Shown: in pieces, positions 31,160-46,501 of the stretch
Layout: every line of letters begins with the position of its first letter
How positions within the stretch are numbered: the stretch's first letter is position 1
Source: an uncultured Bacteroidia bacterium
Lineage (GTDB): Bacteria > Bacteroidota > Bacteroidia > Bacteroidales > UBA932
DNA length: 64,000 nt
Direction of reading: 5' to 3'
Assembly (NCBI GenBank): GCA_902779765.1
Contig: CACZCQ010000010.1
Coordinates: forward strand, 89,336 to 153,335
Translations under genes and position numbers: made by a program
Notes under the pieces: generated by a model
What the model saw: the letters and a program-made list of their open reading frames with translations, nothing else
Told to the model about the DNA's origin: nothing
Database searches by the model: none

Positions 31160-33778
<2,619 letters not shown>

Positions 33779-33793
33779 TACAATCCCCCGGGG

Positions 33794-36337
33794 ATGAAGA
33801 AACTCGACAGATTCATATTGACTTCGTTCGTAGGACCATTCGTACTGATCCTGCTTGTCGTGATCTTCATCCTCGTGATGCAGACCCTCTGGGTCTATAT
33901 CGACGAGCTGGTCGGCAAGGGACTGGACTTCCGGATCATCGCCGAGTTCCTGTTCTGGGGAAGCTGCATGGTGCTGCCGCTTGCATTACCCCTGGCCACC
34001 CTGCTGGCATCCATGATGACCATCGGAAGCATGGGAGAGAACAACGAGCTGATTGCACTGAAGGCTGCCGGAGTATCGGTATTCCGGGTGATGGCTCCGG
34101 TCATGATAGCATCCCTGATCATTTCCGTCGGAACATATTTCGTCATCAACAAACTCGTTCCCGTTGCATACAACGAGATGTTCACCCTGAGGGATGACAT
34201 CAAGAATACCAAGAACGAGATCAAGATTCCCGACGGGGTCTTCTATGACGGAGTGGACGGGTATGTGCTCAGGGTGGAATCCACCTCTCCCGAAGGCATG
34301 ATGAACGGAGTCATGCTCTATGACCATCACGGAAATGGCAATACCAGGCTCACCCTCGCCGATTCCGCACAGATAAAGATGTCCAAGGACAAGTCGTACC
34401 TGACCATCCATATGTACCAGGGCACCAATTACCAGGAGACCAACAAGATGGCTTACAGGGATACTTCCCTGCAACTGCAGAAGATCGACTTCTCCAGGCA
34501 GGAGATGGTGGTCGCCCTCGAGAATTATGCCTTCCAGAAATCCGACAGCGTGAGGTTCGGAGACCAGGCCAAGACAATGCCACTGAGGAAACTGCGTGAA
34601 GTCAAGGACACCCTGAGGGCAGAAAGGGACAGCACCAAGTCGTCACAGCTGATGTCCACTGCAGCTTCCTACCTGTTCTCGCTCAACAAGCAGCTGGATA
34701 CGATTCCCTCCGGGATCTACAGTAATTTCGAGGACCCTGACTTCCTGAATTTCGCCGACGAGAGTGCCACCGCTTCCGCGATGTCCAGGGCTGCAACGGT
34801 CGCCGCACAGATGCAGTCCAATCTCCAGACATATGAATTCGGGGCATTCGATTATACCGTAAGGCTCCGATGGACCATGGTCGAGTTCCTGAGACGGTAT
34901 TCCCAGGCGCTCGCCTGTTTCATAATGTTCTTCATCGGTGCGCCGCTGGGAGCCCTCATCCGCAAAGGCGGGCTGGGTGTTTCAGCCATCGTGGCCATCC
35001 TGTTCTTCGTCCTGTACTGGATCGTCGACATAACCTCCGTCAAACTCTCGAGGGATGGCAGCGTAAGCCCCTGGGTCGGAGCCTTCGCTTCAGCCGCCGT
35101 GATGCTGGTGATCGGCGTCTACCTGACATTCAGGGCCATACACGACACCGACCTGTCCAATACTGATTCCGTCAAGAATCAATGGAAGAAACTCAAGAGC
35201 AAGGTCATCGGGTTCTTCCGCAAGACGAGGATTGTGTTCATGGGTACTCCCGAATTTGCGGTTGCCTCACTCAAGGCCCTGCTCGACAACAACTACAATG
35301 TCGTAGGTGTCGTGACAGTTGCAGACAAACCAAGCGGACGCGGTCAGAAAGTCAACGAAAGCGCAGTCAAGCAGTTCGCTGCCGAGCGCGGCATCCCTGT
35401 CCTGCAGCCGGTCAAGCTCAAGGATCCCGTATTCCTTGAACAACTCGCCGCCTTGAAGGCCGACCTGTTCGTGGTGGTAGCGTTCAGGATGCTGCCTGAA
35501 GATGTATGGATGATGCCCAAGCTGGGTACATTCAACCTCCACGCCGCCCTTCTGCCGCAATATCGCGGTGCGGCCCCTATCAACTGGGCGGTGATAAACG
35601 GTGAGACGAGGACGGGAGCGACGACCTTCATGATCGACAAGAATATCGATACCGGAGGAATAATCCTGCGCCAGGACATCAACATATCCGAGACTGACAC
35701 CGCCGGCGATGTCCATGACAAACTCATGGAAATCGGAGCCGAAATGGTGGTACAAACCACTCAGGGTCTTATCGAGAGAACGGTGGAGACCAGGATCCAG
35801 AGGAGTTTCATCCAAGGTTCCGAGGTCCTCAAGCCGGCTCCCAAGCTGACCAGGGAACTCTGCCATATCGACTGGAACGATAACACCGTCCAGGTCTATA
35901 ACCTTATCCGGGGTCTGAGTCCCTACCCTGCCGCCTTCACCGAACTGGTCAAGGAAGGCTCATCCCCTCTCCAGCTCAAGGTCTACTCCGCCGAGAAGGT
36001 TGATCCTCGGTTCGAAGGGAACGGCAGTTCGGACGCCTCGCTCCGCTCGGCCCCACCGCTCGCTTCACTTCGTTCCGCTCCGGTTCCCCCTCTAGTGCCG
36101 AGGGTGGCATTGTCCTCACCTGCCGTTCCCTCCGAACCTGGAAGAATCATCTCCGACGGGAAGACGTATCTGTGGATAACGACTGCGGACGGAGCCATTT
36201 CACTTAAGGAGGTACAGCTTGCCGGCAAGAAGCGGATGGGCATCGAAGCATTCCTCCTCGGCTTCCGCGACCCTGAATCATACTCCACAACGACCGGCAC
36301 CTCCAAGGCCGAGATAGCCAAGACCAGACAGGCGTGA
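33794..36337 (+). CDS. Fusion: LptF/LptG-family permease + methionyl-tRNA formyltransferase
   Basis: A single open frame of 847 residues. Residues 1 to about 470 are a YjgP/YjgQ (LptF/LptG) permease: three N-terminal helices, a periplasmic beta domain, three C-terminal helices, ending in a basic cytoplasmic tail. From R479 the sequence is Fmt: RIVFMGTPEFAV, the formyl-transfer residues in FNLHAALLPQYRGAAP (His near 583) and NIDTGGI, then the C-terminal tRNA-binding domain. No Fmt start exists at the joint: only a GTG and the ATG of MGTPEF, both inside the first beta strand. LptG-type C-termini face the cytosol, so a tethered Fmt is topologically possible. Residues 739-782 come from a 130-bp inverted-repeat insertion. 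The stop overlaps the thiN GTG. lptG and fmt symbols apply to the halves. Confidence 0.85.
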   Translation: MKKLDRFILTSFVGPFVLILLVVIFILVMQTLWVYIDELVGKGLDFRIIAEFLFWGSCMVLPLALPLATLLASMMTIGSMGENNELIALKAAGVSVFRVMAPVMIASLIISVGTYFVINKLVPVAYNEMFTLRDDIKNTKNEIKIPDGVFYDGVDGYVLRVESTSPEGMMNGVMLYDHHGNGNTRLTLADSAQIKMSKDKSYLTIHMYQGTNYQETNKMAYRDTSLQLQKIDFSRQEMVVALENYAFQKSDSVRFGDQAKTMPLRKLREVKDTLRAERDSTKSSQLMSTAASYLFSLNKQLDTIPSGIYSNFEDPDFLNFADESATASAMSRAATVAAQMQSNLQTYEFGAFDYTVRLRWTMVEFLRRYSQALACFIMFFIGAPLGALIRKGGLGVSAIVAILFFVLYWIVDITSVKLSRDGSVSPWVGAFASAAVMLVIGVYLTFRAIHDTDLSNTDSVKNQWKKLKSKVIGFFRKTRIVFMGTPEFAVASLKALLDNNYNVVGVVTVADKPSGRGQKVNESAVKQFAAERGIPVLQPVKLKDPVFLEQLAALKADLFVVVAFRMLPEDVWMMPKLGTFNLHAALLPQYRGAAPINWAVINGETRTGATTFMIDKNIDTGGIILRQDINISETDTAGDVHDKLMEIGAEMVVQTTQGLIERTVETRIQRSFIQGSEVLKPAPKLTRELCHIDWNDNTVQVYNLIRGLSPYPAAFTELVKEGSSPLQLKVYSAEKVDPRFEGNGSSDASLRSAPPLASLRSAPVPPLVPRVALSSPAVPSEPGRIISDGKTYLWITTADGAISLKEVQLAGKKRMGIEAFLLGFRDPESYSTTTGTSKAEIAKTRQA
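36009..36138. repeat. 130-bp inverted-repeat (MITE-like) insertion in the formyltransferase part
   Basis: The ends, 36009-36026 and 36121-36138, are 18-bp inverted repeats matching at 17 positions (left end GGTTCGAAGGGAACGGCA). Between them the sequence is C/T-rich with repeated CGCTCCGCTC-like words. It is read through in frame, giving a Ser/Pro/Ala-rich low-complexity stretch inside the Fmt C-terminal domain. No clear target-site duplication is visible. Confidence 0.65.
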
Positions 36338-37020
36338 GCACGGCAGTCATCATAGGAGGAGGAGAATTCCCAAGGAAAGAATATCCCCGTGAACTGATAC
36401 GACGGGCCGACAGGATCGTCTGCTGCGACGGAAATGCCTTGAAAGCTTTTCTCCGGAACCGTGCAGGCATATTCGGAAACGATGCCAGGGAACCTGATGC
36501 GGTCGTAGGCGATATGGACTCCATGACGAAAAGTCTCGCTGAAAGGTATTCCCACCTGATGGTCAAGGTCGAAGAACAGGACGACAACGACCAGACAAAA
36601 GCCCTGCATTTCGTCCTGTCCAACTATCCGGAAGTTGATACTGTCCATTTCATCGCCGCTACCGGGAAACGCGAGGACCACACGGTCGGCAATCTCGGAC
36701 TCCTGATGGAATATGCTCGCCCTTCGACAGGCCCTTCGACAAGCTCAGGGACCGGAAGGAGCGTTGCATTGGACATGGTTTCGGACTATTCTACCGCATT
36801 CACCATCACCGGGAGCTGCGAATTATATCTTGGGAAGGGAAGGAGAATATCGATATTCAGTCCCGACAACAGCCTCAGGATAAAGTCCAAGGGTCTTGAA
36901 TGGCCTGTTGACAACGTCGTTTTCAACAACTGGTGGCAAGCCACCCTCAACCGCACCTGTGAAGATTCTGTCAGCCTGGAATTAAATCATGATTCCTTGG
37001 TACTGATTGTGGTTGATTAA
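36334..37020 (+). CDS. thiN: Thiamine pyrophosphokinase
   Basis: 228 residues; converts thiamine to thiamine diphosphate with ATP. Motifs: VIIGGGEFP at the N-terminus, CCDGNALKAF, the Mg-binding GDMDSM, DDNDQTKAL and the FIAATGKREDHTVGNL signature. A GTG at 36334 overlaps the preceding stop (GTGA), and no better ATG is available. Residues of about 131-145 (RPSTGPSTSSGTGRS) are encoded by a palindromic repeat and look like an in-frame insertion between two family-conserved segments. Confidence 0.88.
   Translation: MSTAVIIGGGEFPRKEYPRELIRRADRIVCCDGNALKAFLRNRAGIFGNDAREPDAVVGDMDSMTKSLAERYSHLMVKVEEQDDNDQTKALHFVLSNYPEVDTVHFIAATGKREDHTVGNLGLLMEYARPSTGPSTSSGTGRSVALDMVSDYSTAFTITGSCELYLGKGRRISIFSPDNSLRIKSKGLEWPVDNVVFNNWWQATLNRTCEDSVSLELNHDSLVLIVVD
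36719..36754. repeat. Palindromic repeat inserted in thiN
   Basis: Contains CCCTTCGACA twice and then CCCTTCGACAAGCTCAGGG, whose CCCT/AGGG ends are complementary. This CTTCGACAAGCTCAGG-type word is a known dispersed repeat in diverse bacterial genomes, often read through in genes as STGPSTSSG. A diverged reverse copy lies in murE. Confidence 0.65.
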
Positions 37021-45574: not shown

Positions 45575-46501
45575 CTATCGGCAATAAGGAGGCAGTTGTA
45601 TAGATTCCTCATTTTCGTATTCTTCCTTAGTTACCCAGGTTCCTTTTGATGTATCCCAGAATCCTGTACTTTGGAACAACCTCAAAGATGGATAATCCCT
45701 TAAAAAGACTTCGTTATTTATTCTTCGGTATTCGGATATGACTTTCAGGATTTCAGGAACTTTAATCTCTCTATCTGTTTTCCGTTCTCTAAATTTCAAC
45801 TGTTGTTTGATAACGAATCTTTTTCCATCTTTCCTCTGGAATACCCTGTTCAACCTATCGTTTGAACCAGGCCCCCATACTGCTAAGGCAAATCGACATG
45901 CATCGGCCAGAGATCCGATCCATTCTATTGGGGTTATTGGCGTGTATGTCTTTCCAAAGATAGCCTCTACTTGTTCATCGTCTCGTGCATTAAACCAGTT
46001 CTTAAAGTCTGCAGCCGATCCTTTGAATTTTTCCAAGCGTCCAACCTTGCGACTGGATTCGGTTGTTAATCGCTTCCATTCATTCAAGGCTAAGGCATAG
46101 TCGCTCCGGTTCTCTTTGGGAATGTCTATTGTCTGGTTCAATAGGTCTTCGACGGTCATCTTCAATACGCCTTCTTCCGTAGTGTATCCAAAAAGATCCC
46201 GAATAAGATCCCGAACGGTCATATTCAATACATCTTCTTCCGGAGTGTCTCCTATAAGATCCCGAACAGTCATGTTCAATACATCTTCTTCTGGAGCTCC
46301 TATAAGAGCCCGAACGGTCAACCCTAATACGCCTTTAATGGTTGAGCCTCTCAGCCCTCCGATTTCAAGCAGTTCAGACTCGTATTCTTTGAGCATTTCA
46401 AGCCGTTCTCTATGATCCTGGACACGGGCCACGCCTTTCAACTCGTAGTATATTTGTTTAGCTCTGCTTATCTGTTCCATTGTCTTATGATTAAAAGCCA
46501 T
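45575..46501 (-). CDS. Unrecognised 308-residue protein with tandem 17-residue repeats
   Basis: Residues of about 55-124 hold four copies of a unit of the form EEDVLNMTVRDLIGDTP; the second and third are nearly identical in DNA as well. The rest is unrecognised: a helical N-terminus, and a C-terminal half with DFKNWFNARDDEQVEAIFGK and IEWIGSLADACRFALAVWG, a pattern I have a weak impression of from Bacteroidetes element proteins. Starts within the end of the 78-residue gene (11-bp overlap). Candidate cargo of the element. Confidence 0.65.
   Translation of the reverse strand: MAFNHKTMEQISRAKQIYYELKGVARVQDHRERLEMLKEYESELLEIGGLRGSTIKGVLGLTVRALIGAPEEDVLNMTVRDLIGDTPEEDVLNMTVRDLIRDLFGYTTEEGVLKMTVEDLLNQTIDIPKENRSDYALALNEWKRLTTESSRKVGRLEKFKGSAADFKNWFNARDDEQVEAIFGKTYTPITPIEWIGSLADACRFALAVWGPGSNDRLNRVFQRKDGKRFVIKQQLKFRERKTDREIKVPEILKVISEYRRINNEVFLRDYPSLRLFQSTGFWDTSKGTWVTKEEYENEESIQLPPYCR
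46130..46339 (-). repeat. Four tandem coding repeats, 48-63 bp units
   Basis: Encodes residues 55-124 of the 308-residue protein. The word for VLNMTVRDLI occurs twice almost unchanged; the outer copies are diverged. Confidence 0.7.

Follow-up and report, generated by a model that had tools for sequence, protein, structure and literature searches.

In the window (the whole stretch of DNA that was analysed, 64,000 nucleotides of contig CACZCQ010000010.1 from an uncultured Bacteroidia bacterium), an lptF::fmt fusion gene is located on the forward strand at 33794–36337, with an ATG start and a TGA stop, encoding 847 aa before the stop with a predicted mass of 93.66 kDa. The two remaining forward frames across the same interval contain 46 and 18 stops, indicating that this open frame is not a product of chance. 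The LptF/LptG-family permease domain (33809–35128, forward strand, residues 6–445) matched the Pfam family LptF_LptG (PF03739) with 229.7 bits against a cut-off of 27.9 and is whole, covering profile positions 1–351 of 353, and a profile of the fused proteins matched the LptF structure 6mit_F in the PDB (E 2.2e-11). The permease half scored 149.7 bits with the LptF equivalog TIGR04407, under the cut-off of 230, and 108.6 bits with the LptG model, also under its cut-off; the LptF model is preferred over LptG, and the permease can safely be assigned to the LptF/LptG family, with the narrower LptF equivalog cut-off missed.

The Fmt part (35228–36265, forward strand) is composed of Formyl_trans_N (residues 479–655, 119.5 bits) and Formyl_trans_C (residues 684–824, 71 bits) according to Pfam, and it passes the TIGR00460 equivalog cut-off (234.4 vs. 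201.5 bits). It can be aligned from its first residue to solved Fmt structures (PDB matches 1fmt and 4iqf), and its NLHAALLP and IDTGG motifs, the latter as NIDTGG, align with NVHGSLLP and GLDTGD of 1fmt; the Asn-His and Asp motifs of Fmt are catalytic. The initial annotation had described a single uninterrupted frame with a complete permease of the LptF/LptG family and a complete Fmt, which was borne out by the reading of the frame, Pfam (229.7 bits for PF03739) and TIGR00460. Between the two parts lies the junction (35129–35227, forward strand, residues 446–478), a basic LptF tail acting as linker and holding no in-frame ATG, GTG or TTG; the 34-residue tail counted at this junction has a net charge of +6.

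The fusion gene is preceded by alaS (alanyl-tRNA synthetase; 31160–33778, forward strand; Pfam tRNA-synt_2c, tRNA_SAD and DHHA1), which ends 15 nt upstream, and followed by a gene for thiamine pyrophosphokinase (36334–37020, forward strand; TIGR01378 with 100.1 bits, PF04263), whose GTG start overlaps the fusion stop in the letters GTGA. Because of this spacing and overlap, alaS, lptF::fmt and the kinase gene are likely to form one operon. Among the best 80 loci from named genomes, 35 are fused, and alaS lies upstream in 34 of these 35, the remaining locus being cut off inside lptF, while thiamine pyrophosphokinase follows the fusion, on the same strand, in 19 of the 35. A low-complexity TGPSTSSGTG stretch was seen in the neighbouring thiamine pyrophosphokinase at about 36715–36765, perhaps another in-frame repeat insert.

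The Fmt C-terminal domain contains an in-frame insert (36025–36135, forward strand) made of a dispersed genomic repeat of about 100 nt. This repeat has 19 matches in its own genome, itself included, with 81–100% identity, and the 77%-identical relative L012 is without the insert at this place. Of the eight repeat copies fetched, 36025–36135 among them, seven are contained in an open frame of 150 aa or more on one strand or the other, suggesting that the repeat may be an element tolerated within proteins. Elsewhere in the window (46140–46344), a 43-nt unit recurs in four imperfect direct copies, with spacings of 63, 51 and 48 nt.

The same domain pair, which had been proposed for a search in other genomes, was found in 102 fused loci of the family. 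In the genus of the window (g1), 65 of the 66 loci with Fmt (64 genomes) carry LptF and Fmt in one frame, and the other is a piece at a contig edge. The genus sample comprised 61 genomes; in 56 of them fmt was matched above the cut-off, each time in an open frame of 601–862 aa. The remaining five contain a short piece (G010 and G004), nothing but a weak match in a frame of 192 aa (G046), or no match at all (G014 and G045). Of the 41 genus genomes that are at least 90% complete, 39 have a frame of 800 aa or longer matching LptF/LptG, the Fmt end of these frames being read for only part of the 39, and 38 of the 41 have a stand-alone LptF/LptG match in addition. One genus assembly (G058) contains two fused lptF::fmt loci, L186 and L187, which are 81% identical and represent either two strains in the bin or a duplication.

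For the family, which GTDB names UBA932, loci were hand-picked from genome-search matches of which part were fetched; of 177 loci with Fmt, selected from a sample of 149 genomes and including the genus, 102 are fused, and these come from 101 genomes of different species. In 48 loci (46 genomes), fmt is immediately preceded by a separate lptF of the same strand, and no lptF was present in the stretch examined for 27 loci, some of these stretches being short. The 37 fused loci beyond the genus belong to g2, g3, g5, g6, g15, g16, g17 and g23; the fusion is found in all loci examined of g3 (1), g5 (1), g6 (10), g15 (10), g16 (10) and g17 (3), in one of three loci of g2 and in one of two of g23. 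A separate fmt with lptF upstream was observed in g2, g4, g10, g11, g12, g14, g18, g19, g21, g22, g23 and g25, and the fetched stretches of g7, g8, g9, g20 and g24 contained no lptF.

Outside the family, none of the 140 genomes of the order with a match (146 sampled) is fused, the longest Fmt frame there being 392 aa, and none of the 146 genomes of the phylum with a match (147 sampled) is fused. The two longest Fmt frames among these phylum genomes (G419, 523 aa; G442, 457 aa) were rejected as fusions, with no lptF in the fetched stretch, and a 996-aa frame in G502 that resembled a triple fusion merely extends upstream of the lptF start. Viral contigs yielded four relatives, and in the stretches examined their two halves never share a frame. 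The 35 fused loci among the best 80 named ones carry the titles Bacteroidales, Bacteroidia or Candidatus Cryptobacteroides, and all are titled as MAGs or uncultured bacteria, with no cultured strain among them. The fused locus L262 of Candidatus Cryptobacteroides faecigallinarum encodes a protein 76.6% identical to the g1 protein L222, compared with at most 61.7% (g17) for other genera, so judging from this similarity the genus of the window is probably Candidatus Cryptobacteroides. No report of an LptF-Fmt fusion was found in the titles and opening parts of abstracts of the open-licence papers listed for this fusion and, more broadly, for gene overlap, domain fusion and membrane-bound formyltransferase, and LptF together with Fmt is a domain pair new to us.

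The number of changes between the fused and unfused states was determined on LptF and Fmt trees, a quick one with 99 of the 147 rows having both proteins and a careful one with 54 of those 99. The quick tree required four changes of the fused label, three of them forced by well supported branches; the careful tree also required four, all of them forced, and none of 200 bootstrap trees was compatible with one change. The fused rows fell into four groups, namely g1 with g17; g6 with G061 of g2; g3, g5, g15 and g16; and G119 of g23. A common origin of the main fused clades was rejected, as constraining them to one clade (25 rows) cost 90.3 log-likelihood units (p-AU 1.3e-5), in a test whose group was named after the tree had been seen and which left the fused row L040 (G119) out on both sides. 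These are trees of the two proteins themselves and not of species, and the four changes may mix gains and losses. With at least four changes and one origin rejected, the fusion apparently arose repeatedly, in several lineages, the direction of the changes being one that we infer.

In 46 of 46 unfused genomes with lptF directly upstream, a start codon is present within 20 codons before the Fmt core (ATG in 43, only GTG or TTG in 3). With the nearest ATG taken as the start, the lptF stop overlaps fmt by 1–31 nt in 30 of the 43 pairs and lies 1–74 nt before it in the remaining 13; Bacteroidales bacterium CF (CP006772.1) carries such an unfused overlapping pair. In more distant Bacteroidales (L310, L321, L326, L327, L329 and L330), one gene lies between lptF and fmt, which in L310 is ribBA (DHBP synthase and GTP cyclohydrolase II domains), the five others being alike by eye. 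Adjacent but unfused lptF and fmt were also seen in records titled Odoribacter and Prevotellaceae (L285, L322, L296 and L304).

An origin of the fusion from an overlapping lptF-fmt pair is well supported. The ancestral order in the family is likely to have been alaS-lptF-fmt-thiamine pyrophosphokinase, and the ancestral lptF stop and fmt start would have overlapped or lain a few nucleotides apart, so that the pair was probably translationally coupled already. Translational coupling between close or overlapping genes is described in PMC10666635 and PMC12548453, and fits the unfused state. The frames would then have merged when the lptF stop was lost or the overlap underwent a small shift of frame, after which the fmt start would be free to decay, making the merger hard to undo. 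Given the ribBA-like gene in distant Bacteroidales, the likely path leads from lptF-ribBA-fmt through adjacency and overlap to fusion, where we infer the order of the first two steps. The simplest cause would be a ratchet starting from the tight overlap, without new function and with no selected benefit required.

Thus lptF::fmt is a real and conserved gene fusion, apparently a recurrent one. On the reading preferred here, with a probability of roughly 0.82, this fusion from an overlapping pair would be made as one membrane-anchored chain of about 94 kDa; judged from sequence, a single polypeptide is likely, and Fmt would most likely be a membrane-tethered domain. The LptF part would be located in the inner membrane, where it would take part in lipopolysaccharide export together with LptB and an LptG-like protein encoded separately. 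The C-terminus of LptF is cytosolic in LptB2FG, and the basic LptF tail would carry the complete Fmt there, formylating Met-tRNA in the cytosol beside the membrane. Both halves would be expected to be active in the cell, with Fmt tethered.

A sequencing or assembly error in the form of a missed stop or frameshift, which the initial annotation had named as grounds for refutation, or a chance open frame, has practically negligible probability. The window's genome is a draft of 2.48 Mb in 31 contigs (97.75% complete), but the junction is open in 102 loci from 101 genomes, a recurrence that excludes a sequencing slip, and the stops in the other two forward frames speak against chance. It is also highly improbable that one half is degenerate and replaced by a working copy elsewhere, as might be imagined from the repeat inserted in the Fmt C-domain and from a genome that is not closed. 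No second fmt, the other point on which the annotation could have failed, was found in the 97.75% complete genome, where the only other formyltransferase match is PurN-like (192 aa), and both halves of the fused relatives are under purifying selection. Among 31 pairs sharing no row (drawn from 159 pairs of at least 72% identity, the window-L012 pair included), the median Nei-Gojobori dN/dS was 0.088 for LptF (30 usable) and 0.079 for Fmt (31 usable), with no pair above 1 in either half, and 0.159 across the last 30 residues before Fmt (23 usable pairs). Of 101 fused rows, 100 show the pattern NLHxxLLP, the exception reading NLHTALLP, and all 101 have DTG. Alignment A2 consists of 16 of the 18 rows of alignment A1, with L108 and L120 excluded for unread bases. 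A second lptG had been considered as well, and a stand-alone LptG-like permease is indeed present (C4:109883-110935, 369-aa frame), with 169.1 bits under the LptG cut-off of 240. With one LptB over its cut-off (353.7 vs. 240 bits), both the partner permease, though under the LptG cut-off, and the ATPase of an LptB2FG exporter are encoded in the genome, together with two peptide deformylase matches above their cut-offs.

Alternatively, the gene could be fused and Fmt nevertheless be free, through a protease cut in the basic, probably exposed linker or through an internal start (an unusual codon, for instance ATT/ATC, here; ATG in some relatives). The earlier statement that no usable internal start precedes Fmt stands for the window, where the in-frame codon scan found no ATG, GTG or TTG between residues 440 and 480; the nearest upstream candidates (GTG 35099, ATG 35102 and GTG 35108) lie in the last predicted LptF membrane stretch, at least 41 codons before the Fmt core, and the next ones (GTG 35234 and ATG 35240) are inside the first Fmt strand. 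It does not extend to all relatives, since in 43 of 101 fused loci an ATG occurs in frame among the 15 codons preceding the Fmt core, so that a separate Fmt could be made in some of them. L229, at a contig edge, and L114, in which the pattern search detected no strand motif, are not part of these junction counts. The commonest ATG site is codon -8, in 25 of 65 genus loci, but in relatives M is exchanged there for I, F, V, L and other residues, a pattern more in keeping with a hydrophobic site in a helix than with a kept start. As 39 of the 101 loci, including the window, are without ATG, GTG or TTG within these 15 codons, a membrane-tethered Fmt is favoured and a free Fmt appears unlikely.

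Another explanation concerns the cause and overlaps with the preferred reading: an advantage of having Fmt tethered to the LPS exporter would have led to selection of the fusion, for example by coupling the level or location of initiator-tRNA formylation to biogenesis of the inner membrane or envelope. It would fit the repeated changes of state on the trees, the fusion throughout the sampled genus and the linker, which is 33–49 aa long (median 34), basic in 101 of 101 fused rows and amphipathic above shuffles in three of four genera (median z 1.73 in g1, 2.72 in g15 and 2.34 in g16; rows with X excluded, 64 of 65 genus rows used). However, overlapping genes can fuse repeatedly without benefit, the g6 linkers have no amphipathic signal (median z -0.02), and other genera of the family live without the fusion. 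Constant length as a sign of a structured linker found no support, 67 among 166 windows of equal variability being as constant. In unfused relatives the free LptF tail measures 30–174 aa (median 38.5) and is basic in 43 of 46, indicating that the linker is mostly LptF's own tail. A selected benefit is doubtful, and a ratchet from the overlap is the simplest cause.

Across whole genera of gut bacteria, proteins of two unrelated core pathways are apparently joined in one chain, which offers a natural experiment on the passage from gene overlap to gene fusion, apparently made several times. The preferred reading predicts that the enzyme formylating the initiator tRNA would be found at the inner membrane in the fused bacteria. 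For annotation, naming such a gene only LptF permease or only Fmt could lose one half. It is a bolder and rather improbable idea that several lineages independently made Fmt a permanent module of the LPS exporter, with formylation stoichiometrically and spatially tied to envelope building; to our knowledge, a link between envelope biogenesis and translation of the LptF::Fmt kind is known from no other bacterium.

Compared with known systems, the Fmt half shares with stand-alone Fmt (TIGR00460; PDB 1fmt and 4iqf) the same two domains, the NLH..LLP and DTG motifs and a score over the equivalog cut-off, but it has no start of its own, sits on the C-terminal tail of a permease and carries a repeat-derived insert in its C-domain. 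The permease half resembles LptF/LptG of LptB2FG (PDB 6mit and 5x5y) in its whole PF03739 domain and in the second LptG-like permease and LptB of the genome, whereas it bears a translation-initiation enzyme at its cytosolic C-terminus and scores below the LptF cut-off. Bacteroidales bacterium CF (CP006772.1) has the same order alaS-lptF-fmt-thiamine pyrophosphokinase with overlapping frames, although there each gene of the pair keeps a frame to itself, with separate stop and start. ArnA and ALDH1L1 (10-formyltetrahydrofolate dehydrogenase), which were among the PDB matches of the Fmt half, also have a formyl-transferase domain joined to another protein. In these enzymes both parts belong to one pathway, and Met-tRNA is not the acceptor of the formyl group, while in LptF::Fmt the partner and its pathway are unrelated.
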